Source of the DNA: a virus
Reading direction: 5' to 3' (one strand)
IMG/VR virus record: IMGVR_UViG_3300045922_000293
Coordinates: 49,161-113,160 of that record
DNA length: 64,000 nucleotides
Positions 5,382 through 61,800 of this stretch are shown piece after piece (the stretch's first letter is position 1; each line of letters opens with the position of its first letter). Under the pieces are notes generated by a model that did not search any database, had not been told where the DNA came from, and worked only from the letters and a program-made list of their open reading frames with translations. The position numbers were made by a program, and so were the translations under genes.

Positions 5382-5538
5382 AGTGTTGTCGTGAGGTTCG
5401 CGGGATAGCGATAGCGCAACCTCATACCAAGTCTCCTCCGCTGAGATGCGAAAGAGCGGATATAAACGTGAGGAAAAGGTGCAAACCCCACATGATTGTG
5501 ATATTTCTCCTGCCTCACCACGGTGGGGGGATTATGGA

Positions 5539-6621
5539 ATGGCGGTCAAGCGTAAGCGTGGCCGGCCTAGAAAACACCCACAACAAGAGGAAGGAAGTAG
5601 CATGAATAGTGATAGCATTGAGCTGGTCGAAAATGGCGTGGGTTTGGATATTGGCACAATGAATATTGTGTCTGCCCGCCAACAGGAGGATCGCGTTCTG
5701 TTCCGTAAACAGCGCGACGCATTCTTTGATTTGGATATCACCGCAAAGCCTATGCTGAGGTTGAATAGGGTTCCGTTCATTCAGCAAGATGATCGCTTGA
5801 TCATCCTTGGGGATTCGGCACTTGCCTTTGCCAATGTGTTCAATAGGGAATTGCGTCGCCCCTTATCACAGGGGCTCATCTCGAATACAGATCGTGAGGG
5901 GGCGGAGATTCTTCAAATTCTGATCCAAAACACGATCGGGAAGCCTCAGGGGGATCAAGAAACGTGTTGCTTTAGCGTCCCCGGCAATCCTGTGGATCTG
6001 CCGGGCCGTGATAATGTGTATCATCGCGGGGTGTTCTCCAACATCCTCAAGGGTCTTGGGTATAAACCTATTGCGTCGAATGAGGCCCTTGCGGTCATCT
6101 TCAGCGAGACCGCGCCTGAGATGTTCAGTGGCGTCGCGCTATCCTTCGGCGCTGGCATGGTCAACATCTCCTGCGCCTATCAGACTCAGGCGGTGCAAGC
6201 TCTTCAGTTTGCGGTTGCGCGGTCGGGTGATTATATTGATCAACAATCGGCACAATCCCTAGGCTTAACGGCGGCGAAAATGTGCAAGATCAAAGAGGAT
6301 GGCATTGATCTTCGTAGCCCTTCTACGCAAGAGGAGAGCGCGCTTGCGTTCTATTATCAAGAGGTGATTCGCTATGCCTTGGGTCACATCGTAGATCGCT
6401 ATAAAATGACGGCGGGTCAGAGCATCAGCTTCCCCGAAGCTGTTCCGATGATTCTAAGTGGCGGCACGACACTCGTGAAGGGATTTCACGAGTTGTTCAG
6501 TGCAGAGTTTGAGCGCTGCCGCAAGAAGTTTCCGATCCCAATCAGTGAGATTCGCATGGCGACAGACCCCCTCAATGCCGTCGCTAGTGGACTCTTGATT
6601 CAAGCGCAGCAGGAAGACTGA
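5539..6621 (+). CDS. actin-family ATPase-like filament protein with N-terminal AT-hook
   Basis: 360 aa from ATG 5539. Residues 4-14 are a classic AT-hook (KRKRGRPRKHP), a minor-groove DNA-binding motif. The actin/ParM/MreB fold follows: phosphate-1 loop GVGLDIGTMN (residues 33-42), a connect-1-like helix (GVFSNILKGLGYKPIASNEA), a phosphate-2 position ALSFGAGMVN, and an adenosine motif PMILSGGTTLVKGF near the end. The phosphate-2 loop normally starts with Asp but has Ser here, so ATP hydrolysis may be slow or lost. A second start at ATG 5602 has a strong AAGGAAG site and would give a 339-aa form without the AT-hook. Actin-like proteins move plasmids or build cell shape; here a filament that binds phage DNA directly is plausible. 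DnaK-like or FtsA-like relatives are less likely. Confidence 0.72.
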   Translation: MAVKRKRGRPRKHPQQEEGSSMNSDSIELVENGVGLDIGTMNIVSARQQEDRVLFRKQRDAFFDLDITAKPMLRLNRVPFIQQDDRLIILGDSALAFANVFNRELRRPLSQGLISNTDREGAEILQILIQNTIGKPQGDQETCCFSVPGNPVDLPGRDNVYHRGVFSNILKGLGYKPIASNEALAVIFSETAPEMFSGVALSFGAGMVNISCAYQTQAVQALQFAVARSGDYIDQQSAQSLGLTAAKMCKIKEDGIDLRSPSTQEESALAFYYQEVIRYALGHIVDRYKMTAGQSISFPEAVPMILSGGTTLVKGFHELFSAEFERCRKKFPIPISEIRMATDPLNAVASGLLIQAQQED

Positions 6622-9133: not shown

Positions 9134-10078
9134 ATGTTTTATCCTATGTATCAAAAGCCTGTGAGCGTGCAGAAGAGCTTATCCGTTATATCTGTAGAGT
9201 CTACCGCGTTTGATGTGCTGGCTAGTGAGGGTCGTATTGCCTCGGAAAGATTAACCTCGCAGATGCTTTATCCTAATATGCCTCTCATCGTGATCTGTGA
9301 GGAGAACGGGCAGAAGCATTCTTTACTGGCCATTGCGCTGAAAGAAGAAGATAAGGAAAAGCGTACAATTACGGTACATAAGGTGTCACATGGCAAAGAC
9401 GGCGGGAGTGTTAACGGGATCAAACCCCGTAATAAAGAGCAGAGCTTGTTATTAGCTCTGCTCCAAATGATGCATGTGCGAGTGCTTGTCGTCACAGGTC
9501 CGGCGGGTACGGGTAAGAGCTTGTGTATTGCAGCGCATGCTTTTGAGGTGATCAGTAAGACCAAAGATATGAAGTTGGTCTTGACGAAGCCCTTAGAGAT
9601 CGTGACGGGGACGCGTTTTTGGGGTACCATGCCCGGAAATGCAGATGAGAAGTTTGAGCCTTTTCTTAAATCTTTTTCAGTTCTCTTTGAGTCCATCTCG
9701 CCAAGGGGTGCGAGTACCCGTGAATATGTGGATGGATTGTTAAAGAGCAAGCGCATCGAATTCTATCCCTTAGAAGTGATGCGCGGGGTGTCTCACCGAA
9801 ATAGTTATGTGTGGTATGATGAAGCGCAAAACATGGATTGTCATGAAATGCTTACATTAGGATCACGCATTGATGATGTGGGACAGAGCCGTCTTGTTTT
9901 ATCAGGTGATTTGTATCAACAGGATCGTCATATCGCCCGTCCTGAAACAGGCTTGCACCACCTTGTGACCTCAAAGCATTTCTTGGAGTCCCCTCACACG
10001 GCACACATGGATCTCAATAAGATTGAGCGGGGCGTCGTGTGTCAGCTATTCCATGATATCTTCAGTGGTCTCGCCTAG
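9134..10078 (+). CDS. phoH: PhoH-family ATPase
   Basis: 314 aa. After a divergent N-terminal ~100 residues comes a PhoH-type P-loop domain: GPAGTGKS at 122-129, then LTKPLEIVTG and a GTMPGNADEKFEPFL segment typical of PhoH, PLEVMRGVSHRNSYVWYDEAQNM (Walker B with DEAQN), and a sensor-like LSGDLYQQD. PhoH proteins are cytoplasmic RNA-linked ATPases, common as host-like genes in phages. The gene is followed by a terminator and a new promoter, so it ends its operon. Confidence 0.85.
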   Translation: MFYPMYQKPVSVQKSLSVISVESTAFDVLASEGRIASERLTSQMLYPNMPLIVICEENGQKHSLLAIALKEEDKEKRTITVHKVSHGKDGGSVNGIKPRNKEQSLLLALLQMMHVRVLVVTGPAGTGKSLCIAAHAFEVISKTKDMKLVLTKPLEIVTGTRFWGTMPGNADEKFEPFLKSFSVLFESISPRGASTREYVDGLLKSKRIEFYPLEVMRGVSHRNSYVWYDEAQNMDCHEMLTLGSRIDDVGQSRLVLSGDLYQQDRHIARPETGLHHLVTSKHFLESPHTAHMDLNKIERGVVCQLFHDIFSGLA

Positions 10079-16373: not shown

Positions 16374-16743
16374 AGCCTATTTGAAAGCCCTCAAATCGAA
16401 CCTAGCTAGATCTTGGCTACATCCTAATTGTCCCCCACAAAAATCATACTTTAGACTTGAAAAGTATGTGTGAGCAGGGTATAACCTGCTCGGGTCACTT
16501 TGAACCCTGATGAGTTGTTTAAGAGAGCGTTAAGGGTGTATTCCCACAGCGGAGCCCAAACGTATGTATCTTCTTGGGGGAATTGTGGCCAGCGCCGCTC
16601 CATGGTTGATCTTGTAAGTGAGGTCCTTCAACCATCCTCATGCTCAAGGGTGTAGGCTTGAGATAGGCCGTGCTTGGGCTAGAAGTTGTCTCCGGAGGGT
16701 GTGTAGAAGTTAGGAAGACGATGAAACATAAGAAGGAATGAAG
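16374..16743. other. 370-base noncoding region before the chaperonin gene: promoter and four inverted repeats
   Basis: No convincing gene longer than a few codons. Inverted repeats: CATACTTT...AAAGTATG (16446-16469), GAGCAGG...CCTGCTC (16472-16491), ATGGTTGA...TCAACCAT (16602-16635) and CTCAAG...CTTGAG (16643-16662). The first two overlap a sigma70-like promoter. About 250 bases of transcribed leader would precede the chaperonin. A six-codon ORF (MKHKKE) at 16721-16741 with its own AGGA overlaps the leader end. Confidence 0.6.
16457..16485 (+). promoter_or_regulatory. sigma70-like promoter for the chaperonin gene
   Basis: -35 TTGAAA (16457-16462), 17-bp spacer, -10 TATAAC (16480-16485): each one mismatch from consensus, with ideal spacing. 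Perfect inverted repeats cover the -35 (16446-16469) and the -10 (16472-16491), which could be operators or, once transcribed, the second could be a 5' hairpin. Confidence 0.6.
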
Positions 16744-18384
16744 ATGTCTAAAAAAACGATTGTGTATGGTGATGAGGCTAGGGCGAAGTTAGCAGCAGGT
16801 GTAGATACGATCGCCCAAGCAGTCGGCGTGACATTAGGGCCGCGCGGGCGGCATGTCATGATCGATCGTTTGGGAAATCCGCAAATCACGAAGGACGGAG
16901 TGACTGTAGCTCGTGAGGTAGAGCTCGACACACCTATTAGCCGCCTTGGGGCCCAAATGGCGCGGAACGCTTCCACAGCAACTGTAGCACAGAGCGGGGA
17001 TGGCACGACGACAACGATGATCTTGACACAAGCTATGGTCAAGAATGCGAGGAAGCTCTTGACGGGCAATAGTAGCTTATCCCCTGTTCTGATGCAGAAG
17101 GGCATGATGCGCGCGTCAACCCTCGGGGCGGATTTTTTGAGAAGTATCTCAAGAAAGGTGGAGAGCCCCGAGGAGATCGCCAAGATTGCCTCATTGTCGA
17201 GTAATGGGGATCACCATCTAGGGGCATTGATCGCGCAAGCCTGTGAGACGGCGGGGGAGGAAGGCGTGATCATGGTGGAAGAAGGTAAGGGGATTCAGAC
17301 GGTTTTGGAGTTTGAGGAAGGTTATTGTCTTGATCGCGGCTATTTTGATGTGATTTTTTGTGGGGATCCGTCAAAAACAGAGATTGAACTCGAAGATGCG
17401 TTTATCTTGATTTGTAATAAGAAGCTGACAGATGTCCATGAGAGCAAGCACGTGTTGCAATGGGTGGTCAGCATGGATCGCCCGCTTATCGTGATCGCTC
17501 ATGACTTTGGGGGTGACTTTTTAAAGGCGATGTATCAAAACAGCATCGCCAAAAATATCAATGTGGTGCCTGTTGTCGCCCCCTTATTTGGGGATAAGCG
17601 TGACATTCTTCTTGAGGACCTCGCGGTATTGACAGGCGGGATGGTGATTGATGATATGGCGGGGATCACATTTAAAAGTGTGGAGCCGCAGGATATGATC
17701 GGGATTGCGCATCATGTACGCGTCACGAAGACGCGGACGATCTTGTTTGACTGTACTTCGGATGCAGTCCGCTTAGAACAGCGCATTCGCCATGCTCAAC
17801 ATTTTGCAAGAACAAGCCCCAGCGAGTATGATAAAGAATTTCATCAACGCCGCGGATCTTATCTCGGGGGAGGCATGGCGATCATCCGCGTAGGCGCTCA
17901 GACTGAAGCGGAGATGAAGGCATATAAGGCCCGTGTGGAAGACGCCCTGGCTGCAACGAAGGCTGTGATCAAGGATGGCTTTGTGTTAGGCGGTGGTATG
18001 GCCTATTTAAAGACCTCAGAGTATCTCAAGGGTGTGTATCCCCAGATGAGCTTTGCCACGGAGGATGAGGAGGTTGGCTATCATCTTGTATGTGACGCTC
18101 TTGAAGCACCTCTCGTGAAACTTTTGGAGAATGCGCAGCTCAAGCAGCCTCATCGGATCTTGTATGCCGCGCAAGATTTAGGGTTTGAGGATGGTGCGGT
18201 CTATGACGTAGCACGGGGGGAATGGGTGGATGGGTATAGGGGAGGCATCATTGATCCAACGCTCGTGGTCCTGTCATCCCTGCATAATTCTGTGAGCACG
18301 GCATCCACGCTGATGATGGTGGAGGCCGTGATAGGCATCTCCGATATGGGTGAGTTTTCACCTTTTGGCATTGACCTTGCTTGA
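16744..18384 (+). CDS. groL: GroEL-type (group I) chaperonin, phage-encoded
   Basis: 546 aa, close to the ~548 of bacterial GroEL. ATG 16744 is chosen over 16738 because AAGGA (16733-16737) is 6 nt away. ATP-site motifs are kept: VTLGPRGRHVMID, ITKDGVTVARE, GDGTTTTMILTQAM near residue ~86, and the C-terminal equatorial VEDALAATKAVIKDGF with LGGGMAYL. The apical domain is recognisable (VLEFEEGYCLDRGYF, ALFGDKR-like PLFGDKRDILLEDLAVLTGG). The C-terminus ends MGEFSPFGIDLA without the Gly-Gly-Met tail. It folds proteins in a ring chamber, presumably phage capsid or tail proteins. No GroES-like gene is adjacent or seen in this window, as also reported for the chaperonin of Pseudomonas phage EL. 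Confidence 0.93.
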   Translation: MSKKTIVYGDEARAKLAAGVDTIAQAVGVTLGPRGRHVMIDRLGNPQITKDGVTVAREVELDTPISRLGAQMARNASTATVAQSGDGTTTTMILTQAMVKNARKLLTGNSSLSPVLMQKGMMRASTLGADFLRSISRKVESPEEIAKIASLSSNGDHHLGALIAQACETAGEEGVIMVEEGKGIQTVLEFEEGYCLDRGYFDVIFCGDPSKTEIELEDAFILICNKKLTDVHESKHVLQWVVSMDRPLIVIAHDFGGDFLKAMYQNSIAKNINVVPVVAPLFGDKRDILLEDLAVLTGGMVIDDMAGITFKSVEPQDMIGIAHHVRVTKTRTILFDCTSDAVRLEQRIRHAQHFARTSPSEYDKEFHQRRGSYLGGGMAIIRVGAQTEAEMKAYKARVEDALAATKAVIKDGFVLGGGMAYLKTSEYLKGVYPQMSFATEDEEVGYHLVCDALEAPLVKLLENAQLKQPHRILYAAQDLGFEDGAVYDVARGEWVDGYRGGIIDPTLVVLSSLHNSVSTASTLMMVEAVIGISDMGEFSPFGIDLA

Positions 18385-18547
18385 GGTATGCCGTAAGAAT
18401 GATGGGTTGTGCAGCCCCTCAGAGGAGGAGGAGGACATACTTAATCGTATGGATAAAATTTGGAAAAAGCTCACACTAGAAGAGAAATCTATCACATTTA
18501 CATCGAAGCTTTAGATGCTTCGATCCCATAGAAAGAAGGCATTATAG
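18385..18547. other. intergenic region with hairpin
   Basis: Contains a purine run AGAGGAGGAGGAGGA (18421-18435), a hairpin at 18502-18524 and GAAGG at 18535-18539 that serves the next gene. A 21-codon frame (ATG 18449 to 18514) is possible but its spacing from the purine run is poor. Confidence 0.4.
18502..18524 (+). terminator. stem-loop between chaperonin and DHH genes
   Basis: Perfect 8-bp stem ATCGAAGC / GCTTCGAT with a 7-nt loop and no T-run. It may attenuate or stabilise rather than terminate, since it lies only 24 bases before the next ATG. Confidence 0.4.
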
Positions 18548-19687
18548 ATGAGCAAGAGATTGATTATCTCCCATGCTGGGTGTAATGATGGTACATGGGC
18601 CGCGCATGTATGTCTAGCAAAATATCCTGATGCGAAGGTGTATTTTGCATCTTACCATCAAGACCCCCCTGATGTGACGGGTCTTGATGTGATCATGGTG
18701 GATTTTTCATATAAGCGAGCCGTTCTTCTTGATATGAAGGAGAAGGCAAACAGCTTGATTGTGTTGGACCATCATCTATCCGCTCAGGAGGATTTAGAGG
18801 GTCTTGATTTTTGCATCTTTGATCAAGAACATAGCGGCGCGGTCATGGCATGGTTGTATTTGTTCCCAGATCGCCCCGTGCCCGATCTTTTAAAGCGTGT
18901 GGAGGATTATGATCTTTGGCGGTTTCATTTTGAGGATACCAAGCGTGTAGTGCAGGGTATGTATTTGTACGGCAAAGATGATGTACAGCGTGAATTAGAT
19001 ATTGATGCTTTGCTTCAAGGTGTTGGTGACGATCGCCTGACCTTTTATGCAGATGTGGGCTCAGTGCTTGTCAAGTCTTCCAATCATGCGGTGTCGCGAT
19101 TAAAGAGCAAGGCCCATGATCTGAAGATAGGGGGGCATTGGGTCAAGGCTGTCAACACAACAGAATACGTCTCAGAATTAGGGGCCGAATTAGCTGCAAA
19201 GTCGAAATTCGCTGTGATTTGGAGTCTATCAAAGGATTCACAGCACATTCAATTATCTTTCAGATCGGATCGTGATAATCCGGACCATATCAAAGTGAAA
19301 GATATTGCGACATCATTAGGCGGGGGTGGTCATGAATATGCTTCAGGTGCTAAGATGACATTGTCAGAATTCTTGCTGTGTTTGAATCCTTATAGGAATG
19401 CACGTTCAGAGGCTTATAGGGAGATCACGCCGGATGCCGTGCTTGATTTCCTCAAGCATCACGGATGGATTGAGGTAGCTTCAACGGATTATAAGAGGGG
19501 GGAGGTGTATCAGCCTTTGTATAGCGTGTGGGATCTGCCCAAGACTGAATTTCAAGTCTTGGTGCCGCATGATCCTGAAAGGTCTGAATATACGCAGCGT
19601 ATGGCTGAAGTGGTGACACATCTTGCACAGGCACACCGTCGAGAGCGTCATGATATGATGTTCATGTTGATTCGTGGGTATAAGTGA
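18548..19687 (+). CDS. DHH-family phosphoesterase (NrnA/NrnB-like)
   Basis: 379 aa. Motifs in order: ISHAGCNDGTWAAH (metal site I), IMVDFSYKR (site II), LIVLDHHLSAQ (the DHH motif), FDQEHSGAVMAW (site IV), and a C-terminal DHHA1 signature GGGGHEYASGAKM near residue ~260. The ~100 residues beyond the DHHA1 motif are extra. Family members hydrolyse short RNA oligonucleotides, cyclic dinucleotide products or cAMP/cGMP. In a phage it could degrade nanoRNA for nucleotide salvage or remove signalling nucleotides of host defence; the substrate cannot be told. GAAGG lies 8 nt before ATG. The stop overlaps the next gene's start (TGATG). Confidence 0.85.
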   Translation: MSKRLIISHAGCNDGTWAAHVCLAKYPDAKVYFASYHQDPPDVTGLDVIMVDFSYKRAVLLDMKEKANSLIVLDHHLSAQEDLEGLDFCIFDQEHSGAVMAWLYLFPDRPVPDLLKRVEDYDLWRFHFEDTKRVVQGMYLYGKDDVQRELDIDALLQGVGDDRLTFYADVGSVLVKSSNHAVSRLKSKAHDLKIGGHWVKAVNTTEYVSELGAELAAKSKFAVIWSLSKDSQHIQLSFRSDRDNPDHIKVKDIATSLGGGGHEYASGAKMTLSEFLLCLNPYRNARSEAYREITPDAVLDFLKHHGWIEVASTDYKRGEVYQPLYSVWDLPKTEFQVLVPHDPERSEYTQRMAEVVTHLAQAHRRERHDMMFMLIRGYK

Positions 19688-23427: not shown

Positions 23428-23637
23428 ATGGCAGGTTTTCTTCGACCACAGCGCCCCTTAGATAAAACGATCTACTGGCGCGAGCTTAAAGTCTATGCGC
23501 TTTCACGGTTGGATGAACACGCATGGCAATATGAATTCTTGACGCAGTGTCAAGATGATGAGGATGCGCTCCGGCGTTTATCTTGGATCACAAAAACAGA
23601 TATTGAAAGGGATACTGTACAACATGGCAAGCCGTAA
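23428..23637 (+). CDS. hypothetical small protein (69 aa)
   Basis: Starts immediately at the previous stop and overlaps the next gene by 14 bases. Charged and helical (YWRELKVYALSRLDEHAWQYEF). No motif recognised; kept because of the tight operon overlaps. Confidence 0.5.
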   Translation: MAGFLRPQRPLDKTIYWRELKVYALSRLDEHAWQYEFLTQCQDDEDALRRLSWITKTDIERDTVQHGKP

Positions 23638-24758: not shown

Positions 24759-25101
24759 GTTGAATCCATATTGTTTAAAGGGTTCTTAGGGTGCGTACCC
24801 TGAGTGTTTTGGGCCAGATGAAGGCATGGGGATACGCGTGGATAGAAGAACACTAGGTGCGCGTAGCACACGTATAACGATAACGCCATACACTTCATCA
24901 CGCAATATTAAAAAACGTGTTAAGTACGTCTACAAAAATATTGACAGGGCCATCTTTAAGATAGCTTTCAATGAACATGTTGATATACAATGAGAAAATT
25001 TCAATTGCAAATCCATGAGCCTTGTTATAATTTCAAGGTCGTGTAGCGCCTATCGAAAGCCTGCGCTGTCACCTCTACGTCGCATCCATGGGGATCCCGT
25101 C
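24759..25101. other. divergent control region (sigma-like gene / topoisomerase gene)
   Basis: 343 bases with no gene. Contains a hairpin at 24785-24804 (CTTAGGGT / ACCCTGAG) followed by TGTTTT, an isolated TTGACA at 24941-24946, a small palindrome ATCTTTAAGAT (24952-24962), and an extended -10 promoter at 25023-25031. AT-rich between 24900 and 25030, unlike the flanking genes, as expected for a promoter region. Confidence 0.55.
25023..25031 (+). promoter_or_regulatory. extended -10 promoter for the topoisomerase B gene
   Basis: TGT followed by a perfect TATAAT (25026-25031). The best -35 is TTGCAA at 25005-25010 with a short 15-bp spacer, which matters less with an extended -10. Predicted transcript start is near 25038, so the CDS must begin downstream; this supports ATG 25102 over upstream TTG/ATG codons. 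Confidence 0.6.
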
Positions 25102-26988
25102 ATGACTCAACCCGCCGCCGCCTACACCTCGGATGATATCAAACACCTTAGTGAGCGCGAGGCTGTCCGCCTCCGCCCCCACATGTACATTGGTTCCACA
25201 GATAGACGTGGCCTGCATCATGTGGTCGCTGAGATTTTGGACAATGCTTGCGATGAGGCTTTGAACAAGCACGCGAATGTCATCACGGTCGATGTGTCCT
25301 CCGATGGTGGGTACGTATCGATAGAGGATAACGGTCGTGGCATCCCATCGGAGCCTAACAAGGAAGGGGTGAGGGGTGTGGAACTCGTGTTCACGAAACT
25401 TCACGCGGGAGGCAAATTCGGGGATTCAAGTGCTTACGGGTCTTCTGGGGGTCTTCACGGCGTCGGCGCTAGCCTAGCCAATTTCTTATCAACGCGTCTT
25501 GAGGTGGATATCTGGCGATCAGGAATGCACACAAGATTCATCACCGTGGATGGTGAGTTTGAATCCGTTGAGGATCACCCCAGTCAAGATAAGAAGCGCG
25601 GCACGAAAGTCACATTCTACCCACTTTTTTCAAGATTTGAATGTGATCGTCTTGAATATGAAGACATCAAGACCATGATCGAAAATAAGGCATATTTGTT
25701 ATCCGGCGTGAAATTCATCCTCATGCGTGGGGGATCTAATCCCCACGTGATTTATTTTGAAGACGGGATGCGCGCTCTCTATGATCTGTGTAAAGATGGC
25801 TTGGATCAGGTACATCAACCGGAGTTGATCCTTGATCAAGAATATGAGGGATTCCAGGTCAAAGCCCGTATAGGATGGGTGTACAGCCGTGAATATGATC
25901 GTAAGACGTTCGTGAACATGATCCCAACACAGGACGGTGGGACGCATGAGCAGGCGTGTTTGAGCGGTCTTTTAACCGCCTGTAGGGCGCTAGAGCAGGG
26001 GAAGAAGCCTGTGTTAAGTCTTGAGGATGTACGCGGGGGCCTTCGGCTTGTTCTCAGTCTGACCGCCCCGAAAATAGCTTTTGAAGGGAATCTCAAAGCC
26101 AAATTATACACACCCGAATATTTATCTCCGCTCACACGAGTGTTCCAGCGTCATGTTGAACAGTATTTTGTGGACTACCCACAACAGGCCAAGATCCTGC
26201 TTGAATTCATGCTTGAGACAAGGCGTCTGCGCCTCCATCAAAAGGCCCAGAAGGATACATCATCTAGGAAGTCCCCCGTTTTGAATCTCCCCGCCAAGCT
26301 GGCGGACTGTCTACATGCCGATCCTGTCAAGCGCGAGCTTATCTTAGTCGAAGGGGATAGCGCGGGGGGTAACGCAAAGCAGGGTAGGGATCGGCACACA
26401 CAGGCAATTTTACCCCTTCGCGGCAAGATTCTGAACACCGAGCGCATGAGTGCTGAGGATATTTTAAAAAATAAGGAAATTCAGGCTATTGTGGACTCTT
26501 TGGGGTGTGGAATAGGTAAGAACTATGTGTATGAGCATGTGCGCTATCACAAGATCATTCTCTTGATGGATGCGGATAGCGATGGGGGTCATATTTTGAG
26601 CTTGATCTTAACGTTTTTCTACCGCCATCTTCCCGATCTTATCAAGCGCGGCCACGTCTTCATCGCGCAGCCCCCGCTGTTTGCGGTATCCTATAAAAAT
26701 GAAAAATTTTGGGCGCTCACGATAGAAGATCGCGATCGTCTCTTGAAGACCTACCCCAAAGCGGAAGTGTCCCGCTTCAAAGGCTTGGGGGAGATGCGCG
26801 CCCAAGACCTCAAAGCAACGACACTTGATGCAGCTAGCCGTCAGATCATCCCCGTGGCGTGGCCAGCGAATACGGATGAGGTCAAAGAATGTGATGATAT
26901 TTTTGAGGCCCTGATGGGAAAGCACGCATCCTTGCGATCCGATGCAATTGCGGCCTATATGAAAGATCATGCTACGGAAGACATTTGA
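25102..26988 (+). CDS. type II DNA topoisomerase subunit B (GyrB/ParE-like)
   Basis: 628 aa from ATG 25102, the length of a compact GyrB/ParE without the long insertion of E. coli GyrB. GHKL ATPase motifs: AEILDNACDEALN, VSIEDNGRGIP, GGLHGVGASLANFLS, then RGTKVTFYP. Transducer and TOPRIM follow: LVEGDSAGGNAKQGRDR, AILPLRGKILNTE, and LLMDADSDGGHI (the metal-binding DxD), with PPLFAVSYKN near the end. It powers strand passage that removes supercoils or decatenates DNA. The A subunit is not in this window, so it must lie elsewhere or come from the host. The last 17 bases overlap the antisense exonuclease gene. Confidence 0.92.
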   Translation: MTQPAAAYTSDDIKHLSEREAVRLRPHMYIGSTDRRGLHHVVAEILDNACDEALNKHANVITVDVSSDGGYVSIEDNGRGIPSEPNKEGVRGVELVFTKLHAGGKFGDSSAYGSSGGLHGVGASLANFLSTRLEVDIWRSGMHTRFITVDGEFESVEDHPSQDKKRGTKVTFYPLFSRFECDRLEYEDIKTMIENKAYLLSGVKFILMRGGSNPHVIYFEDGMRALYDLCKDGLDQVHQPELILDQEYEGFQVKARIGWVYSREYDRKTFVNMIPTQDGGTHEQACLSGLLTACRALEQGKKPVLSLEDVRGGLRLVLSLTAPKIAFEGNLKAKLYTPEYLSPLTRVFQRHVEQYFVDYPQQAKILLEFMLETRRLRLHQKAQKDTSSRKSPVLNLPAKLADCLHADPVKRELILVEGDSAGGNAKQGRDRHTQAILPLRGKILNTERMSAEDILKNKEIQAIVDSLGCGIGKNYVYEHVRYHKIILLMDADSDGGHILSLILTFFYRHLPDLIKRGHVFIAQPPLFAVSYKNEKFWALTIEDRDRLLKTYPKAEVSRFKGLGEMRAQDLKATTLDAASRQIIPVAWPANTDEVKECDDIFEALMGKHASLRSDAIAAYMKDHATEDI

Positions 26989-27516: not shown

Positions 27517-29865
27517 ATGTTACACACCGCCGCGACAGTCACGATCTCTACGATTATTCTACCAACCATCACGCTTCATCACGATCTGGTTCCAGGCGAA
27601 AAGCGATCCGATGCGCTTTTCTTAGAACACTGGACTAAAAAAACCCAATTTGACTCAGCAGAGGTGGATCACAGCTTCTTCGTCCTCCTCATGGAAGGAG
27701 TGAAGGGGGTAGGTCTCTATTCCAAGGCTTCTTCCATTAAAGAATTGTCAAAGGGGAAATACCGCATGACATTCACGGCGATGTCGCGCGTGAATCTTGT
27801 GGATGTGGATGTGGCAGGTGGTGTCTGTACTTTTGAACATACGGTATTTGAGGGGAAACTTCTTGAGAAGGATTACGGGAAACTGATTAAACATGCTGAA
27901 GCATTAAATTTTGTGCAAAATGGTGTGAAAGACATCCCCGGAATGAGTCTCAAGCATGATCTCCTTGTCTTGGGATACTTCTCTTATCGCCTAAGCTATC
28001 ACTCCGTGGCCATCTCGAAGTACAGCCACAAGATCATCAAAATGTCAGCCTCACAGGCCCGAGATATTCTTGAGGCGGGTAAGATTCATGTATGGATCAA
28101 GACCATCTTTGATCTTTTGTCTCAGAGCCTGTTGGCGGTTGAGGTTGAGGAAGAGACCGAGAAGGCCGTGACTGCTCAGACAAAAGAGATTCAAAAGAAT
28201 GCGATTATCCGTGAAAAGATCAAAGCTCTCCAGAAGCAGTTGTCCGATGAGGATGATTCAGATGGTATAGATTTCGAGTCACGTGTGATGGAAGCGGATC
28301 ATTTAACAAATGAAGCACGTACGGCGCTGATGAAGCACGTACGGCGCCTGAAAGCCATGCAGCAGACGTCATCTGAATATTCATCCCTGACGCAATATGT
28401 GGATACCTTGCTGTCCTTGCCTTGGAACCGTTCCAGTCAAGCAACGCCGTTGAGTATCGTGGATGCGAGATTGGCTTTGGAACAGCAGCATTATGGCATG
28501 GATCAAACCAAGAAGCGTATCCTTGAGTATCTCGCCGTATGCGCCTTAACGCCGCGGATGTCACCCCCGATCCTGTGTCTTGTAGGGCCCCCTGGTACGG
28601 GCAAGAGCACGATTGCACAGAGCATTGCCCAAGCATTAGGGCGTGTGTTTGAGCGTATTAGCTTAGGGGGCGCTCATGATGAGAATGAGATCAGGGGCCA
28701 CCGTCGCACTTATGTAGGTGCGATGCCGGGGCGTATTGTCAAGAGTTTGATCAAGGCTGGGGTGAATAACCCTGTATTGCTTCTCGATGAGATTGATAAA
28801 GTTGGCACGGGTAGGCATAGTGGTGGCGCTCAGGCCGCTTTACTTGAAGTGCTGGACCCATCGCAGTATCATACGTTCCATGACTATTATGTGGATATCC
28901 CCGTGAATCTCAGCACATCGGTCATGATCGCTACGGCGAATGATCTCAGTACGATCAGCCCCCCACTACGGGATCGTATGGAAATCATTGAGGTGCCGAG
29001 CTACACTTCTGTTGAAAAACTAGAGATCGTGAAGAGGCACTTGTATCCTCAATCTCTTGATCGTCACGGTTTAACCCCTGCTGATATTGAGATCGATGCC
29101 GATAGGATCTGGCCTCAAGTGATCAGTGATTACACAGCGGAGGCGGGTGTGCGGTCTTTATCCAAGAAGATCGACGCAGTGGTACGTCACAGCGCTCTGT
29201 TCAAGCTGGAGCATAAGAAGCCTTTTGAGGTGAGTTTGGCTTCCCTTGATGATGTGTTAGGTTTACCGATCTCAAGCCATGATCGTATTAAATCCTCACC
29301 ATCCATTGGCCTTGTGACGGGCTTGGCTTGGACGCCTGTGGGTGGGGATATTTTATTTATTGAGGCCGCCCGTGTTCAAGGGGGCCCGCCGGGCGAGATC
29401 AAGATCACGGGGTCTCTTGGTGATGTGATGCGTGAATCTGTGCAGGCGGCTTGGACGTATCTACGTACTTTGCCTGATTTGATCATCCCGCCTGATATCT
29501 CCATCCATGTCCACGTGCCCGCAGGGGCGACACCTAAAGACGGTCCCTCGGCTGGAATTGCCTTGATGGCAGCCCTTTTGTCGGTCATCACGGGGCATCT
29601 TATCCCTGCGGATCTTGCTATGACGGGGGAGATCACGATCAGGGGTGATGTGCTGGCTGTAGGCGGGATTCGTGAGAAATTGATTGCGGCGCACCGTAGT
29701 GGGGTGCGCACAGTGATTATGCCTACCACATGTAAGCCCCACATGCGGGAAGTTCCCCGCATCGTCCAAGATGATCTGACCGTGCATTACGTGTCTCATG
29801 CCTCCGATGTGATCACCTTGCTGGGGTTAGTGATCCCCTTACGTCAGAGCATCACCACCCCGTGA
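27517..29865 (+). CDS. lon: ATP-dependent Lon protease
   Basis: 782 aa, full bacterial Lon length. N-terminal substrate domain starts TIILPTITLHHDLVPGEKRS. A helical linker is followed by CLVGPPGTGKSTIAQ (Walker A from ~357), RISLGGAHDENEIRGHRRTY (Lon signature), NPVLLLDEIDKVG (Walker B) and the peptidase domain with KDGPSAGIALMAAL (catalytic Ser ~678) and GGIREKLIAAHRSG (catalytic Lys ~721), almost the same numbering as E. coli Lon. It degrades misfolded or regulatory proteins; a phage copy could remove host regulators or defence proteins. AGGA at 27501-27504 overlaps the antisense gene's start codon. Complete, with no missing key residue. Confidence 0.95.
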   Translation: MLHTAATVTISTIILPTITLHHDLVPGEKRSDALFLEHWTKKTQFDSAEVDHSFFVLLMEGVKGVGLYSKASSIKELSKGKYRMTFTAMSRVNLVDVDVAGGVCTFEHTVFEGKLLEKDYGKLIKHAEALNFVQNGVKDIPGMSLKHDLLVLGYFSYRLSYHSVAISKYSHKIIKMSASQARDILEAGKIHVWIKTIFDLLSQSLLAVEVEEETEKAVTAQTKEIQKNAIIREKIKALQKQLSDEDDSDGIDFESRVMEADHLTNEARTALMKHVRRLKAMQQTSSEYSSLTQYVDTLLSLPWNRSSQATPLSIVDARLALEQQHYGMDQTKKRILEYLAVCALTPRMSPPILCLVGPPGTGKSTIAQSIAQALGRVFERISLGGAHDENEIRGHRRTYVGAMPGRIVKSLIKAGVNNPVLLLDEIDKVGTGRHSGGAQAALLEVLDPSQYHTFHDYYVDIPVNLSTSVMIATANDLSTISPPLRDRMEIIEVPSYTSVEKLEIVKRHLYPQSLDRHGLTPADIEIDADRIWPQVISDYTAEAGVRSLSKKIDAVVRHSALFKLEHKKPFEVSLASLDDVLGLPISSHDRIKSSPSIGLVTGLAWTPVGGDILFIEAARVQGGPPGEIKITGSLGDVMRESVQAAWTYLRTLPDLIIPPDISIHVHVPAGATPKDGPSAGIALMAALLSVITGHLIPADLAMTGEITIRGDVLAVGGIREKLIAAHRSGVRTVIMPTTCKPHMREVPRIVQDDLTVHYVSHASDVITLLGLVIPLRQSITTP
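28310..28347 (+). repeat. 18-bp direct repeat, period 20 bp, read in two frames inside lon
   Basis: ATGAAGCACGTACGGCGC occurs at 28310-28327 and 28330-28347. Because 20 is not a multiple of 3, the first copy is read (N)EARTA and the second MKHVRR. It lies in the helical linker before the ATPase domain. Confidence 0.85.
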
Positions 29866-29950
29866 GGATCCATAGCACGAATGCGGGTGTCAAGTCGGCC
29901 ATTGATGTACCAAGATGTTAGGTTGTGTTCTTGTGTGTGGGGTATAAACA

Positions 29951-30457
29951 CTAAAACGCTGATAAGAGCCAAGCAATATGCCGTGACATCTGCGCCCAAC
30001 CTAATACAATGGATTTTTGAGTCACCACATTATCAAGGAATCGTGTCACAACAATCTTGTCACTGATCTCACAGAGAATCTTGCGCTCCCCTTGGACAAA
30101 GGTCAGTGATATGCCATCGAGGAGCTGAAGCGTCGGCCCCACGGCGATATGAGCGCGCGATGCTAGACTTAAAAATAACATTGTATTGTGGTATAACGTG
30201 GTTTTGGTCTGTTTGAGAGCAGCTTGAAAGAACAAAAAATCTTCTTGAAGATGTTTCTGGTCTACTTCCTCCAAAATGATCTCTTCGATCGATGAGACGG
30301 GCCGGTTATTGCGCAATAACGTCTCACCTTCTTTATGAGTTTTGGCGAGATTCAAAGGTCTGTACAGATCCTCGAACGCCTCACTATCCTCCTCCTCATT
30401 GACAGGGGGTTTGATCTTGCTGCTTGACCAATGGAATCTCTTCGATTTGTTTTCCAT
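29951..30457 (-). CDS. hypothetical protein (168 aa)
   Basis: ATG at 30457 is chosen because AAGGGGG lies a few bases upstream. Starts MENKSKRFHWSSSKIKPP, then an acidic region (NEEEDSEAFEDLYRPLNL). The C-terminal half is hydrophobic and beta-like (FLSLASRAHIAVGPTLQLL, ISLTFVQGERKILCE). Could resemble a small regulatory protein, but no family is recognised. Convergent with lon; 85 bases lie between the two ends. Confidence 0.55.
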   Translation of the reverse strand: MENKSKRFHWSSSKIKPPVNEEEDSEAFEDLYRPLNLAKTHKEGETLLRNNRPVSSIEEIILEEVDQKHLQEDFLFFQAALKQTKTTLYHNTMLFLSLASRAHIAVGPTLQLLDGISLTFVQGERKILCEISDKIVVTRFLDNVVTQKSIVLGWAQMSRHIAWLLSAF

Positions 30458-30617
30458 GATTACCCCCTTCTGTCCCTGAACTAGAGACACTAAACTCCAA
30501 GTTAAAAAAAGCTCGTGTGACCACGATGCAACGTCCATCCGCGGAGTGCTGTAAAGACACCGCCTTGTCATTCGATGCCCTAAGATGGTAGATGTTCCCT
30601 TGTTTATTCCGATACAT
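30396..30617 (-). CDS. hypothetical small protein (73 aa)
   Basis: A frame from ATG 30617 (MYRNKQGNIYHLRASNDKA... CIVVTRAFFNLEFSVSS) that overlaps the start of the 29951-30457 gene by 62 bases. Composition is protein-like in the first 50 residues. The ribosome binding site is weak, and the overlap is longer than usual, so the 3' end may be chance. Confidence 0.4.
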   Translation of the reverse strand: MYRNKQGNIYHLRASNDKAVSLQHSADGRCIVVTRAFFNLEFSVSSSGTEGGNHGKQIEEIPLVKQQDQTPCQ

Positions 30618-30746
30618 TTTTGACACGTTTTTGCTCCCGCAGCAATATACTATCCCCGCAAAGCGCATAGGTATTAATAAATGCCATTCTTGTGAGGGCA
30701 CCCCCTTGGGTGTGGAATGTGTAGAAAGGTATAGACGGGTATCCTA

Positions 30747-31109
30747 ATGGCCGCAGATGATATGACAACAAGACTGCTGTTGCAAACCCTAGAGGCGTTT
30801 GAGCCCATCAGGGAAGATGTGACAGAGCTTAGAAGGGATATTGCAGATTTAAGGGTAAGACACGCGAATGTGAGCGTGATCGATGCTAGACTTAAGCACA
30901 TTGGTACGACCATTGAAGGCTTGAATGATAAGATCAAGGTCTTGGGTCAAACCGTAGATGAAAAACATAAGGCGCTTGATGCTAGACTTGATACGATTGA
31001 GAAGACCCATGCCCGCTGGCTAGGGGCGCTTGGCGTGGTGGCCGTGATCTTAGGTCTGATCTCAGGGCATCTTGTCAAATGGTTAGGTGCTTTGATGGTT
31101 GCCCCATAA
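30747..31109 (+). CDS. coiled-coil protein with C-terminal membrane segment, XhlA/holin-like (120 aa)
   Basis: Residues ~15-85 are a long coiled coil (DVTELRRDIADLRVRHANV, DEKHKALDARLDTIEKTHAR). Residues ~95-117 are a single hydrophobic span (LGVVAVILGLISGHLV, then WLGALMV). This layout resembles XhlA-type hemolysin/holin-associated proteins and also phage membrane anchors. No lysis enzyme is recognised nearby, so the lysis role is tentative. Confidence 0.55.
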   Translation: MAADDMTTRLLLQTLEAFEPIREDVTELRRDIADLRVRHANVSVIDARLKHIGTTIEGLNDKIKVLGQTVDEKHKALDARLDTIEKTHARWLGALGVVAVILGLISGHLVKWLGALMVAP

Positions 31110-31122
31110 TGAGCCTATTTCT

Positions 31123-31755
31123 ATGCGATATGAACATGAATTAAGTGCCCTGTTGACAGCTTATCTCACCTCAATGGGGTATTGTGTTCATGGTGAGGTA
31201 AGTGTGTTTCATCGCACTTTGACATTTGATCATGTGGCGCATCTTGGTCCGTGTGATTGCCCCGAGTATGTGCTCACATTTCAATTGAAGCTAGGATTTA
31301 CGCAAGACCTTATACGTCAAATGATGCGTGATGATCTTGGTCATTATGGTGATGCGCATTATATGGTGACGCCTAAGAAGCGCGGCTATACACGCGATCT
31401 TTATGCTGCGAAACTTGATCATTCGTGGTATATTAAGCCTGGCTGGATCGTGATCGGTGAGGAAGCGGATCTGATCGTAGATGCCACTGTGATGAATCCT
31501 CACTATGCTCTAAGAAATAAGTACAGGCTGCTTCTCACGGAGGCGAATAGGGGCATGATTGGGGGTGTCAAGGGCGAGGTGTATGACACTCACTGGAAGC
31601 TAGCCTGTAGATATCATCGGGAGTGCTCACAGCATAATCCGCTTTATTTGCAGAATACACAATCCATGAAGCAAGTGATAGCAAATGCGCCTTCCGCATT
31701 GAAGTGTTATAAGAATTTGGCAGCTACACTAAAAAAGGTAGCAAAATGCAAGTAA
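31123..31755 (+). CDS. hypothetical protein (210 aa)
   Basis: ATG 31123 is used; upstream codons overlap the previous stop. N-terminal helix (YEHELSALLTAYLTSMGYCV) followed by beta strands (SVFHRTLTFDHVAHLGPCDC, EYVLTFQLKLG) has the outline of a nuclease-like fold, but the (D/E)-x-K signature is replaced by QLK and I do not call it. C-terminal part is basic (LKCYKNLAATLKKVAKCK). Overlaps the next gene by 10 bases. Confidence 0.5.
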   Translation: MRYEHELSALLTAYLTSMGYCVHGEVSVFHRTLTFDHVAHLGPCDCPEYVLTFQLKLGFTQDLIRQMMRDDLGHYGDAHYMVTPKKRGYTRDLYAAKLDHSWYIKPGWIVIGEEADLIVDATVMNPHYALRNKYRLLLTEANRGMIGGVKGEVYDTHWKLACRYHRECSQHNPLYLQNTQSMKQVIANAPSALKCYKNLAATLKKVAKCK

Positions 31756-32072
31756 ATGTAGAAAGAATCGTACAAGCTTATTTGAAGAAAGCGAAGGCGC
31801 ATTGTTTGCGATTGCGCCCTACACCACATTCGGGCGAGGTCAGAGTTTATTTTGATTATGAGGAGGGTCAGCCTACATGTCAGATAGTAGGTATTCAGGG
31901 GAATGATCAAAAGGCGTTTCCGCGTGAGGGGGAGTCCTTTGACGCGATCAAGCGTTGGGTCCACATGAATCCAAAAGCACAGGTATATCATGCCTCATTA
32001 GGATGGCTATCTCGTCCCGATATGAATGCATGGCAGCATCTTAGGGCTTATTTTTCAGGATCAGAAGAATGA
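31746..32072 (+). CDS. hypothetical protein (108 aa)
   Basis: Overlaps the genes on both sides (10 bases and an ATGA), a typical coupled phage gene. Small alpha/beta protein (VRVYFDYEEGQPTCQIVGI, then AWQHLRAYFSGSEE). Function unknown. Confidence 0.55.
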   Translation: MQVNVERIVQAYLKKAKAHCLRLRPTPHSGEVRVYFDYEEGQPTCQIVGIQGNDQKAFPREGESFDAIKRWVHMNPKAQVYHASLGWLSRPDMNAWQHLRAYFSGSEE

Positions 32073-36409: not shown

Positions 36410-36474
36410 GGTGGTTAGCGGTCGGACCTTAGTCCTACCACATACCAAGTGCCCCCTAAGAGGATGAGGGCATC

Positions 36475-36492
36475 CTCCACCTTAAGGTGGAG
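36475..36492 (+). other. perfect 18-bp palindrome
   Basis: CTCCACCTTAAGGTGGAG; as RNA a 7-bp stem with TTAA loop. Its 5' arm overlaps the 3' arm of another hairpin (36460-36477), so only one of the two can form fully. As DNA it could also be a dimeric protein-binding site. Confidence 0.6.
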
Positions 36493-39869: not shown

Positions 39870-41838
39870 AATGAAGAATCCGAATGATCTGCTTGTAGGA
39901 TCGGGACAGGCGGCTCAGGGGAGTGTCTCGACGAGTGCGTTGGTTACGGTTGATTTCGCGGCTCGTCCCCCTGTGAGCGTCAATGCGGATGCTATTCCTG
40001 TTGACACACCTTTGGCCATTTCGGGTAGTAATGTTCAATTACATGTTGATGGGGTCAGCGGATTAGCCCCGCGCCCGCTCCCGTTGACTTTGGGGCAAGT
40101 GTATCAAGTGGATCCTGAAGTGGGGTTTGTTCCCACCCCCTCACTCGGATCTCCCGCGGGGTCAAATATCTTGTGCCTAGTGTTTCCTAGTGCATCGTTT
40201 CAATACCTCAATGTAGGCTTTCCCGCCGATCGGGGCGTGCTCGCGGTGGAGTTTGACCCAACGTTAACGGGCCTGAATTATCAGGCCGTGAGCGCCCTGG
40301 ACATGACCAAAGTGTTTGTAGAGGGGTCACCGGATGATGACGTGACAGCACCTTCACGGCGTGTGGGGCAGCTCGATTATATCGCGGGGTCAGACCCCGC
40401 TGCAAGCGTCGGGGTATTACCTCAAAACGTCACTTTACGTGATCGTTTACCTCGTCTTGATGATTATACACGCTCAAATTTTCCGTTTCTCAATCCGGTG
40501 GGGGATGACCCCGTTTACCCCGCGTTTCATGAAGATTTCACAGGTCAATATCTCTCTAAATTTGAGATTACGGTCAATCTTTCCGTGGGTCAAAATGGAT
40601 TGATGCGTTTTGTGCATTATAAATCCCGTGTAGATTTTCAAGCGGGTCAAGCGGGGGATCCATTCGCATCGTGGTCAATTGTTGACACGACATTCGCTCC
40701 CTTAAATATTAGTATTTTCTTTGATAATAGTGTCATCCCTGTAGGGATTACTTCCTACACTTTGGACGCGAATAATCTTGTGGACTCGAATGAGATTGGG
40801 CCCTCAAGGCGATTTTTGAGTGGCGTTTTGTACTACTCCCCCGTAGATACGTTCACGCTCACATGGGGCGCGACAGGGATGTATGCGAATAGTTATGCAC
40901 TTGAAGGTGCAGCCCTCCCGCGTGGTCCCCTTGATACAGCGGATGAGTCCTTATTTGGTTTTAGCTCTTATAGCCCCCCTGTACCCAACATTGCGGACGT
41001 ATCCACATTCAATGACCCTTTATTTACCTTCGCGGTGGGGGGTGTTCGTGCTGCAAGACCTCTGCTAAGGGTGTTTAAACCTAATGGTTCCCAGAACACA
41101 CAACCCTACCCCGCCCTTCATCCTACTCTTTTGGTGCATGAGGCTAACTTTTTGACGATCCATGCTCAAGAAGAGAATTTTAGACACGAACGATCACGAT
41201 ACCCCTTTACAGGTAACGCCATCCTTGCTTATGATCCTTCAGGGACAACGAGTACGTGGGATGCTACGGCGTCTATTGTGGGCTCACAAGAGCTTCAGGT
41301 GCGGGGTGTGGATGTGGTGACACGTCCGTATTTAGGCTTAGGTGGTGGTGAGCTAGTCTTCCCCGTGACGGATTATAGCACGGGGCATGTGCCCCAAACA
41401 TTTGACGGTGTGACGCCACAGCGGGATTATAGTGTGGTGCCTGGCTTCCCTTTCTTGGTGTTTGTGCGTGCTTTCGATGTGGGAGGGCCCCGCCGCGAAG
41501 GGCGTATTCAAATCGACGGGACTTTTGATACGGGTCTTCATGCGACCCTTGCTGCCATGCTTCTTGAGCCCAACACCTCTGGGGTCGATATTGAGCTAGC
41601 GGCCACAGGCGCCCAAGGAGTCTTTTTCAGCTCTGTGTTAAGACCCGTGGGGCAGGGTGGAATCCTTACAGGAGTTGAAATAGTCAGTGAGACGAGTGTC
41701 ATCTTGGACTATCTGTTACCTCATACGCCTAATTTTCAGTTTAATGCTTGGCCCGTTACGTGTCAGGTAAAGATTCAGACGGGGTCACAAGCATCTCTAG
41801 CGCCTTTTGGACTTCAACGAATTCGGATTGTAGTATGA
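39862..41838 (+). CDS. tail-fibre-like structural protein (658 aa)
   Basis: ATG 39862 with GGAGG 4 nt upstream; it overlaps the stop of the previous gene. Begins MPRMKNPNDLLVGSGQAAQG. Beta-rich throughout, with Gly/Pro/Asn-rich strands (VPTPSLGSPAGSNILCLV, GVRAARPLLRVFKPNGSQN). The last ~150 residues (VVTRPYLGLGGGELVFP, FLVFVRAFDVGGPRREGRIQ) look weakly like the corresponding end of the 46828 protein. No enzyme motif. Coupled by an ATGA to the beta-helix gene. Confidence 0.6.
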   Translation: MPRMKNPNDLLVGSGQAAQGSVSTSALVTVDFAARPPVSVNADAIPVDTPLAISGSNVQLHVDGVSGLAPRPLPLTLGQVYQVDPEVGFVPTPSLGSPAGSNILCLVFPSASFQYLNVGFPADRGVLAVEFDPTLTGLNYQAVSALDMTKVFVEGSPDDDVTAPSRRVGQLDYIAGSDPAASVGVLPQNVTLRDRLPRLDDYTRSNFPFLNPVGDDPVYPAFHEDFTGQYLSKFEITVNLSVGQNGLMRFVHYKSRVDFQAGQAGDPFASWSIVDTTFAPLNISIFFDNSVIPVGITSYTLDANNLVDSNEIGPSRRFLSGVLYYSPVDTFTLTWGATGMYANSYALEGAALPRGPLDTADESLFGFSSYSPPVPNIADVSTFNDPLFTFAVGGVRAARPLLRVFKPNGSQNTQPYPALHPTLLVHEANFLTIHAQEENFRHERSRYPFTGNAILAYDPSGTTSTWDATASIVGSQELQVRGVDVVTRPYLGLGGGELVFPVTDYSTGHVPQTFDGVTPQRDYSVVPGFPFLVFVRAFDVGGPRREGRIQIDGTFDTGLHATLAAMLLEPNTSGVDIELAATGAQGVFFSSVLRPVGQGGILTGVEIVSETSVILDYLLPHTPNFQFNAWPVTCQVKIQTGSQASLAPFGLQRIRIVV

Positions 41839-58867: not shown

Positions 58868-61800
58868 ATGGATACCGTGAGCCTCTTCGGAGATGACTTC
58901 GCCTATGAGAGCAAACAAGCCTTCAAAGCCGCCAACATGCCGGGGGAGCTTCCCCCGTATGAATGGATGCAGGCGCACGAATTTATCGGGGTGAAGACCT
59001 TAGAGGAGTTGGCAGAGCTTGTTGAGGAATGCAAAACGAAGCCTTATGTGGCCATAGATCTTGAGACGACGGGCCTTGATAACCGCCGCGATAGCTTAGG
59101 GCATACAAAAGATCGCATTGTAGGTATTTGTATGAGTCCCGATGGCAAAAGGGGCTATTATGTCCCGGTAAGACACGCTGATCCATCATGGAATCTCCCC
59201 CCCTCTAAGGTCTTCCCCCTGATTAGGGATCTTTGTGAAGCAACGGTGATTATTGTCCATAATGCCATCTTTGATCTTGATATGCTAGCGGGTGAGGATA
59301 TCATCGTAGAGAGCCCCCACAAGTTTGAAGACACCTTAATTTTATCCTACCTCAGGGATTGTGCATCAAAACGCCACGGTTTGAAATATCTCAGCTCTAC
59401 ATTGCTCGGAAAGACAGACCCTGAGACGGGACGTCCTACGGGCCATAAAATGTTCGAGATTCATGAGCTATTTCCGAAAGGCTTTAAACATGACATCACC
59501 TTTCAAGACTTGGACCCCTATCACATCAATACACTACGCTACGCGTGCGCGGATGTCGTGAACACCTACTTGCTCTATTTACATATGCAACAGGTAGGTC
59601 AGGAACAAAGCGCAATCTATATGATAGAGAAGTCTACTGTAGCAGCCTTGATGTGGATGGATCTCAACACATGCAAGATCAATTTATCTACATGTGAGAG
59701 AATTCTTCATGAGATTCAAATCTTATTTGAAGCAGCAATTGAAGATATTTATGAGAGTTTGGAAGAGTCTTTTGAAAAGGTCGTGGACGTATTCCATGAT
59801 CATATTCGTCAAGTGCATGAGAAGAAGCCTTATAAGATTCATGAGATTTTAAGTCTAGGTTTACGCGATCAGATCAAGGCTATGTATGCGATTACGAGTC
59901 CCATGCAATTGGGTGAGGTGTTCGCTTTTTTGTCGAAGCACCAAAAACATACGGGATTCGATGTCGCACTAGAATATACGGGGGATGAGAATTCTGAACG
60001 GAGGCAGGTAGGTACAAGCGAAGAAGTAATCAATCGGATGATTGCGGCAGCGGGGCACAGGTTTCACTTTTTGAATCGCATCGGCACCTACCGCACCCTT
60101 CAGAAGATTGAAGGCACTTATGTGAGGCCGATCTATGAGGCCGCTAAAAAGAATCAAGGCTTCGTTCGTTTTTCGTTCAACCCGTATTTTACAGATACGG
60201 GACGCTTTTCTGCATCAAAAGGTGATCCCAATTTAGGCTACAGCGGGATCAATATTCAAAGTACACCCGCGTGTTATAATACCGCCAAGATCCTAGGGCG
60301 TCCTATTCATGAGCGGCCTCAGGGTACGGGTATCGGTGCACTGCACCAAAGCTACCTTGATGCGAAAACCAAGGGTGGTTTTATCCGCCTCGTGCATGAC
60401 GGTCATTTTATAAGGGATAACGTGACGGGGGGAGAGTTTTGTATACGCTCCGAATGTGATGAAACTTGCCTCTTCGCTGCTTCCTGCAAGCACGGGAGAA
60501 CGATCAAACAGCGTATGGTGAGTTTGGAGTCGAGCGCGCGGCTGTGTCTTGAAGCAAGGGATGAGGACCATATTCTTGTGGCTGTGGATCAAAGCGGCGT
60601 GGAGCTTCGTGTCGCCGCAAACGCTTCACGGGAGCGTAAATGGATCGATGAATTTTTCCGTTGTGCTTCATGTGGCCATCAGTTTGAGCAAGAGCGCTCT
60701 AAGGGGATCGCGCCCCCTAAGCTGTGTCCCCTCTGTGAGAGTGATAAGATCGGGGATCTGCATACTCTGACGTGCAAGATCGTTCATGGCGAAGCCATCA
60801 CGGAAGACCCAAAATTTAAAGAATTTAGACAGGCGGCAAAATGTGTTGTGGGGAGCACACGCATTCTTAGCAGTCAAGGTCTTGTCACAATAGAGAGCCT
60901 TAAGCCTTGTGATCGTACAAAGCCAGATACGTTTTATCCCGTGACGGGCCTTCACGTTTGGTCAGAGGCAGGCGTCCAAGAAGTCTCTCATTTTTATGAC
61001 GGCGGTGTACAGCCTACATTGAGGATCAAGACTGCTTTGGGCATGACCTTAGAGGGTACAGCTTCACATCGTATCCGTGTCTACGATCAAGAGTTGGGTT
61101 ATGTATGGCGGAATTTAGGAAGCCTCAAGGTGGGGGATCTTGCGGTTCTTGATCGGGGATCGGATGCCTTTCATGTTGAGATTTTACCTCATTGGGAATC
61201 TTCTCATGACGTGCGGCCTGAAGACGTGAAGTTTTTGAGCCAACGTCGCGCCATTTTTGATCCTATTCTTTTCATTGAGGATGGGGGGCCTCAACAGGTG
61301 TGGGATCTTACAGTGCCGGAATCTGAGAGTTTTTGGGGCAATGGCTTCATCAACCATAATTCTGCGAACTTCGCAATCCTCTATGGGGGGGGCCCAAATG
61401 CGGTCGCTGCCGCGACGGGGCTATCTGTGGAAGGGTCAGCGGCGTTCAGAGATAAATTTCTTTCGGGCCTTCCTACGCTCAAGCGTTGGTTTGACACCAC
61501 GATATCACAGGCTCGAAAACAAGGCTACGTCCAAACACTCTTAGGGCGCCGCATTCTGCTCCCTGATATTAATCATGAAAATAGTGGACGCCGGACAAAA
61601 GCCGAGCGTAATGCGATCAACAGTATTATTCAGGGCACGGCCACGGGGGATCTCATCCGTTATGCGAAAGCACGGATTTACCGTGAGCTGGGTAAGATTC
61701 CTGATGGCCGTAAGCATTGCAAGCTCATCATTACGGTGCATGATGAGCTTGTATTCGATATCAAGAAAGACAAGCTCCCGATCCTCATCCCTGTCATCTT

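Follow-up and report, generated by a model that had tools for sequence, protein, structure and literature searches.

A group I chaperonin gene behind the giant tail sheath of a huge myophage, with no GroES beside it

With what partner does a phage GroEL work when no GroES gene stands beside its own, and does the long gap in front of the gene control its expression? Both questions are raised by a groEL gene in a 64,000-nucleotide stretch of viral DNA, here called the window, which is the final 64 kb of a linear 113,160-bp IMG/VR virus record without end repeats. The 485-kb huge phage LR745208.1 and two further relatives, G006 (127.7 kb) and G050 (437.5 kb), are collinear with the record, and the IMG/VR contigs that carry relatives of our two baits, the tail sheath (326 stretches matched) and a Volactin-family protein (486 stretches), reach up to 619 kb. 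The record thus covers only part of the genome of a huge myophage, so that a GroES missing from the record is not thereby shown to be missing from the phage. The Volactin-family protein (Pfam PF25216, E 2e-67; window 5446-6621) seems to mark a large clade of huge phages. Searches for tRNA and tmRNA genes returned none.

The gene follows a tail-sheath gene of exceptional size (Table 1), in which the sheath domain is confined to residues 1690-2040, that is, the last 350 of 2044, with a very long N-terminal part before it; the sheath is kept and widespread in relatives, where its length is 1411-1665 aa. Further neighbours encode PhoH (window 9134-10078), a DHH phosphoesterase (18548-19687), a GyrB-like topoisomerase II (25015-26988) and Lon protease (27517-29865). 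The family A DNA polymerase of the window (58868-62335) contains an internal, sub-threshold match to an intein splicing domain (PF14890) and a zinc-ribbon match.

Table 1. Features of the groEL locus, in window coordinates.
Feature	Position	Strand	Remarks
Giant tail-sheath gene, 2044 aa	10239..16373	+	phrog_2839 tail sheath, E 2e-36; directly upstream of the leader
Non-coding sheath-groEL gap (leader), 370 nt	16374..16743	+	second longest gap in the record
Perfect hairpin, 8-bp stem	16445..16468		overlaps the -35-like TTGAAA
Promoter-like TTGAAA-N17-TATAAC	16457..16485	+	10/12 of consensus; unproven candidate
Perfect hairpin, 7-bp stem, GTATAA loop	16472..16491		overlaps the -10-like TATAAC; unique in the window
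Inverted repeat, 8-bp arms, 18-nt loop	16602..16635		local fold z about 0
Six-codon ORF MKHKKE	16721..16741	+	overlaps the groEL Shine-Dalgarno
Shine-Dalgarno AAGGA	16733..16737	+	6 nt before ATG 16744
Group I chaperonin GroEL/Cpn60, 546 aa	16744..18384	+	assigned by family, catalytic residues and fold; ORF also opens at 16738
Perfect 8-bp hairpin	18502..18524		117 nt past the groEL stop

The preliminary description of this DNA, made from its letters alone, had recognized a complete phage GroEL, and this is borne out by the intact reading frame and by matches to Pfam PF00118 (E 9e-55; 186.7 bits against a curated cut-off of 34.3), to the PHROG groEL family (E 6.5e-118) and to GroELs in the PDB (E 1e-107). 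As to its further remark that complete group I chaperonins are rare in phages, 271 phage-collection records match this family, a few of them being bacterial contigs. Such contigs (CAKLQH020000021.1, AGRM01000005.1 and probably MT835992.1) inflate counts of "phage GroELs". Of the two possible translation starts, ATG 16744 is most likely the one used, since the N-terminus aligns with GroELs from MSKKTI onwards and AAGGA is well spaced before it. All nucleotide-site and catalytic residues are retained (T30-P33, D52, D87-T91, D398 and D495), and by its sequence the protein looks like an ATPase-competent group I chaperonin. Its AlphaFold model (pLDDT 87) predicts a GroEL fold without a built-in apical lid, and its best matches are, over the full length, GroES-bound GroEL subunits (TM 0.87, 3.0-3.3 Å).

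Single-protein pattern scans for relatives of GroEL and Lon gave none, and alignment-based scans succeeded. In seven relatives of the window phage (G006, G034, G035, G036, G037, G038 and G050) groEL lies shortly downstream of the same sheath, and in a tree of 64 GroELs, obtained by a short search and rooted only at the midpoint, the window protein clusters with these seven sheath-linked proteins (SH-aLRT 98). The next larger supported set (26 rows, SH-aLRT 97) comprises every sampled GroEL of the clade and no others. As the branch of the window protein is long (1.74), its exact place inside the group is unsure; the protein is a member of an old phage-borne lineage and not a recent host capture. 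A bacterial groEL, taken from a host or brought in by a mis-assembled contig, might be suspected because the protein is of the group I family and bacterial contigs do occur in phage collections, but both flanks are collinear with G006, G050 and LR745208.1 and the tree places the protein among phage GroELs. We consider this origin refuted by synteny and phylogeny, its remaining probability being close to nil.

The second point of the preliminary description, that no GroES lies beside groEL, also stands: no Cpn10 was found adjoining the gene or anywhere in the 113-kb record with Pfam or with a 13-sequence profile, none in six-frame translations of the record with the custom profile and filters off, and none by PHROGs among 30 small ORFs. 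The custom profile recovers the GroES of G006 at E 2e-14 even with G006 left out of it. This GroES has 120 aa, carries the mobile loop TASGLVLS and is encoded 45 kb downstream of groEL; that of G050 has ~127 aa and the mobile loop TASGLVV, is encoded 58 kb downstream, and shares its flanking genes with the former. The separation of groEL from GroES is thus real, yet less strange than it first seemed, since two close relatives carry GroES at such a distance. From Lon to the next shared block, G050 has ~85 kb that include GroES, and the window record has ~2 kb (29865-32069). In itself, this is a sizeable block by which two collinear huge phages differ. With the GroES block missing at the matching place, the GroES of the window phage would either sit elsewhere in the unsequenced part or have been lost. 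A location just past the end of the record, an idea taken from G006 synteny, was rejected, the comparison with G050 having shown that the window record lacks the entire 85-kb block.

The earlier suggestion of an absent, distant or host co-chaperonin is therefore upheld as to physical separation, and the missing block leaves all three possible; as to absence, a fragment does not allow the conclusion. That description had also named a GroES gene elsewhere in the genome, in a regulated pair with groEL, as evidence that would speak against it, and what G006 and G050 hold comes close to this, but not as an adjacent regulated pair. Among 33 long records of the clade, Cpn60 occurs in 19 and Cpn10 in three, or in 20 and four when G050 is added; the GroES-bearing ones are G006, G050, G012 and G028, and the other 16 of the 20 GroEL-bearing records have no detectable GroES. 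Nine of these 16 are longer than 240 kb, with none of the long records certified complete and with one of the nine, G007, being very probably LR745208.1 again.

These counts, together with the missing block and the lack of GroES in the record, would be expected if GroES had been lost and the protein acted as a putative single or open ring that needs only ATP to hold substrates and let them go, like the chaperonins of phages EL, OBP and AR9. The latter are described as needing no co-chaperonin, with no interaction between the EL protein and E. coli GroES (PMC7185714, PMC9598537), and in a comparative study the jumbo phages with HSP60 and those with HSP10 formed different sets (PMC7824862). The protein itself offers some signs in the same direction: its GroES/substrate groove carries the substitutions Y203I, L234K, V263Y, V264Q and R268A, none of the ring-ring interface positions 452, 461, 463 and 464 is kept and there is no GGM tail, although other phages vary there as well. 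GroES-bearing phages, however, share groove residues with it (K234 in YC; Q264 in G006, G050, G012 and G028), and since Q264 is common to GroES-bearing relatives, a lid is compatible with the altered apical face; we have rejected these changes as proof of GroES independence. Neither does the protein show an affinity to the EL/OBP/AR9 type, being 23% identical to an EL-type protein and 20% to that of PBS1, while its identity to bacterial and sheath-linked GroELs is 35-42% (35% to bacterial GroEL). Given also that the record is a fragment and that close relatives retain GroES, we hold work by ATP alone to be rather unlikely.

The leader was proposed to be structured and to regulate groEL tightly. 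A specific regulator of this kind, with operators on the promoter, a structured RNA and a leader peptide, finds some encouragement in the length of the gap and in the two tandem hairpins, which, as had been described, are perfect inverted repeats at the -35- and -10-like elements. In shuffles, two such hairpins turn up in a leader of 370 nt in 0.6% of cases, and the fold at 16440-16510 is above chance (z = -4.0). The proposed near-consensus promoter survives only as a candidate, for while 10 of 12 positions match, TATAAC is without the final T, the site was not listed by the promoter scanner and matches of this quality are not enriched on the + strand of the record (20, against 15.3 ± 4.9 in shuffles). 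Likewise, the structure of the leader beats chance at the tandem hairpins, but the rest (16492-16760) folds no better than shuffles (z = +1.0), and the six-codon ORF is present, but no more often than chance would have it, mini-ORFs that end at a start being found at 19 of the 101 genes of the record and at 11% of random places.

Further evidence counts against regulation by the leader. No similarity was found between it and the relatives or other compared sequences, the Rfam scan of the window gave no credible match, and a search for the CIRCE operator upstream of groEL gave no match, even when as many as 3 mismatches were allowed. Perfect hairpins are moreover a genome-wide class, with 13 in the gaps of the record against 1.9 to 4 expected, most of them at most 160 nt after a gene end and only one of the 13 followed by a T run (record 23567-23590). 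Since they lie mostly just after gene ends, the tandem pair in the leader may be part of the sheath transcript's 3' end. With a leader that is not conserved and mostly unstructured beyond chance, tight regulation by it seems to us quite improbable. That the leader is a remnant of the small genes found between sheath and groEL in relatives was also considered and rejected, with no tblastx support. Elsewhere, the window holds a second tandem pair of perfect gap hairpins (36460-36492) and the record one gap hairpin with a 19-bp stem (GAGAATAAGGTCTATATGG..., record position 40511-40554). In relatives, a terminator-like hairpin precedes groEL in G038 and promoter-like sites are seen in G006 and G036/G037, a pattern that fits groEL as a unit of its own.

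The reading that we favour, with a probability of roughly 0.6, is that of a dedicated phage folding machine that uses a separately encoded or a host GroES. A huge-myophage groEL, inherited in an old phage-borne lineage and placed after the giant tail sheath, would be transcribed as a separate unit; its product would form ATP-driven heptameric rings, with large proteins of the virion or of replication as possible substrates for folding, and the cycle of the rings would be completed by a non-adjacent GroES-type lid, either a phage GroES from the unsequenced part or that of the host. The kept ATP-site and catalytic residues and the match of the predicted model to GroES-bound subunits point this way, as do the tree grouping and, in G006 and G050, the shared sheath-groEL order with a genuine GroES in the shared neighbourhood; by analogy, so do the remote GroES genes of five Vibrio phages and the use of a single bacterial GroES by Myxococcus xanthus GroEL2 (see below). 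Against the use of a lid count the lack of GroES in the record and in 16 of 20 relatives of up to 619 kb, the missing block, the changes of L234 to K and V264 to Q in the groove and the long branch (1.74), which might be expected upon loss of a partner.

Phage chaperonins with and without GroES were already known, mostly as isolated examples, and the strongest new point here is the comparative setting, in which closely related huge phages differ in this respect. With this clade one can ask whether phage GroELs become lid-independent, borrow the lid of the host or have a distant, hidden GroES, and which proteins of the virion, possibly the giant tail sheath among them, depend on GroEL. More broadly, the old, vertically kept chaperonin of this clade may repeatedly have shed GroES, such that most members, the window phage included, are lid-free or borrow host GroES; we regard this as a tentative possibility, at somewhat less than even odds. 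If it is true, the cost and the structural basis of lid loss could be tested directly on close pairs of which one has GroES and the other does not.

Among known systems, G006 and G050 resemble the window phage in the gene order after the sheath, in GroEL sequence (~41% identity) and in clade, and differ in having GroES 45-58 kb downstream; the window record lacks the GroES block and has the 370-nt leader. Other phages with a group I-like GroEL encode Cpn10 adjacent or nearly so to groEL (immuto, elemo, DAC23 and Calle_1) or 8-75 kb from it (Vibrio phages 1.244.A, K382, VAP7, YC and phiTY18); the five Vibrio phages are alike in their phage group I GroEL with a far-off GroES, and unlike in that their GroELs belong to a different clade and their genomes hold the GroES. 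In five phages with a more divergent GroEL (phi14:2, JM-2012, Mx1, an EL-type phage and PBS1), no Cpn10 is detectable. EL gp146, OBP gp246 and AR9 gp228 are likewise phage chaperonins without an adjacent GroES, but far more divergent (~23% identity for an EL-type protein). With the bacterial GroEL/GroES system of the E. coli type the window protein shares domain order, catalytic residues and fold (34.7% identity to Salmonella GroEL), and departs from it in the lack of an adjacent groES, of a GGM tail and of CIRCE, and in its altered apical groove and ring interface. In bacteria, stand-alone groEL genes occur in 770 of 4,861 genomes, and the stand-alone GroEL2 of M. xanthus needs that bacterium's single GroES (PMC5406781); its gene is like that of the window in having no neighbouring groES, and unlike it in being cellular.
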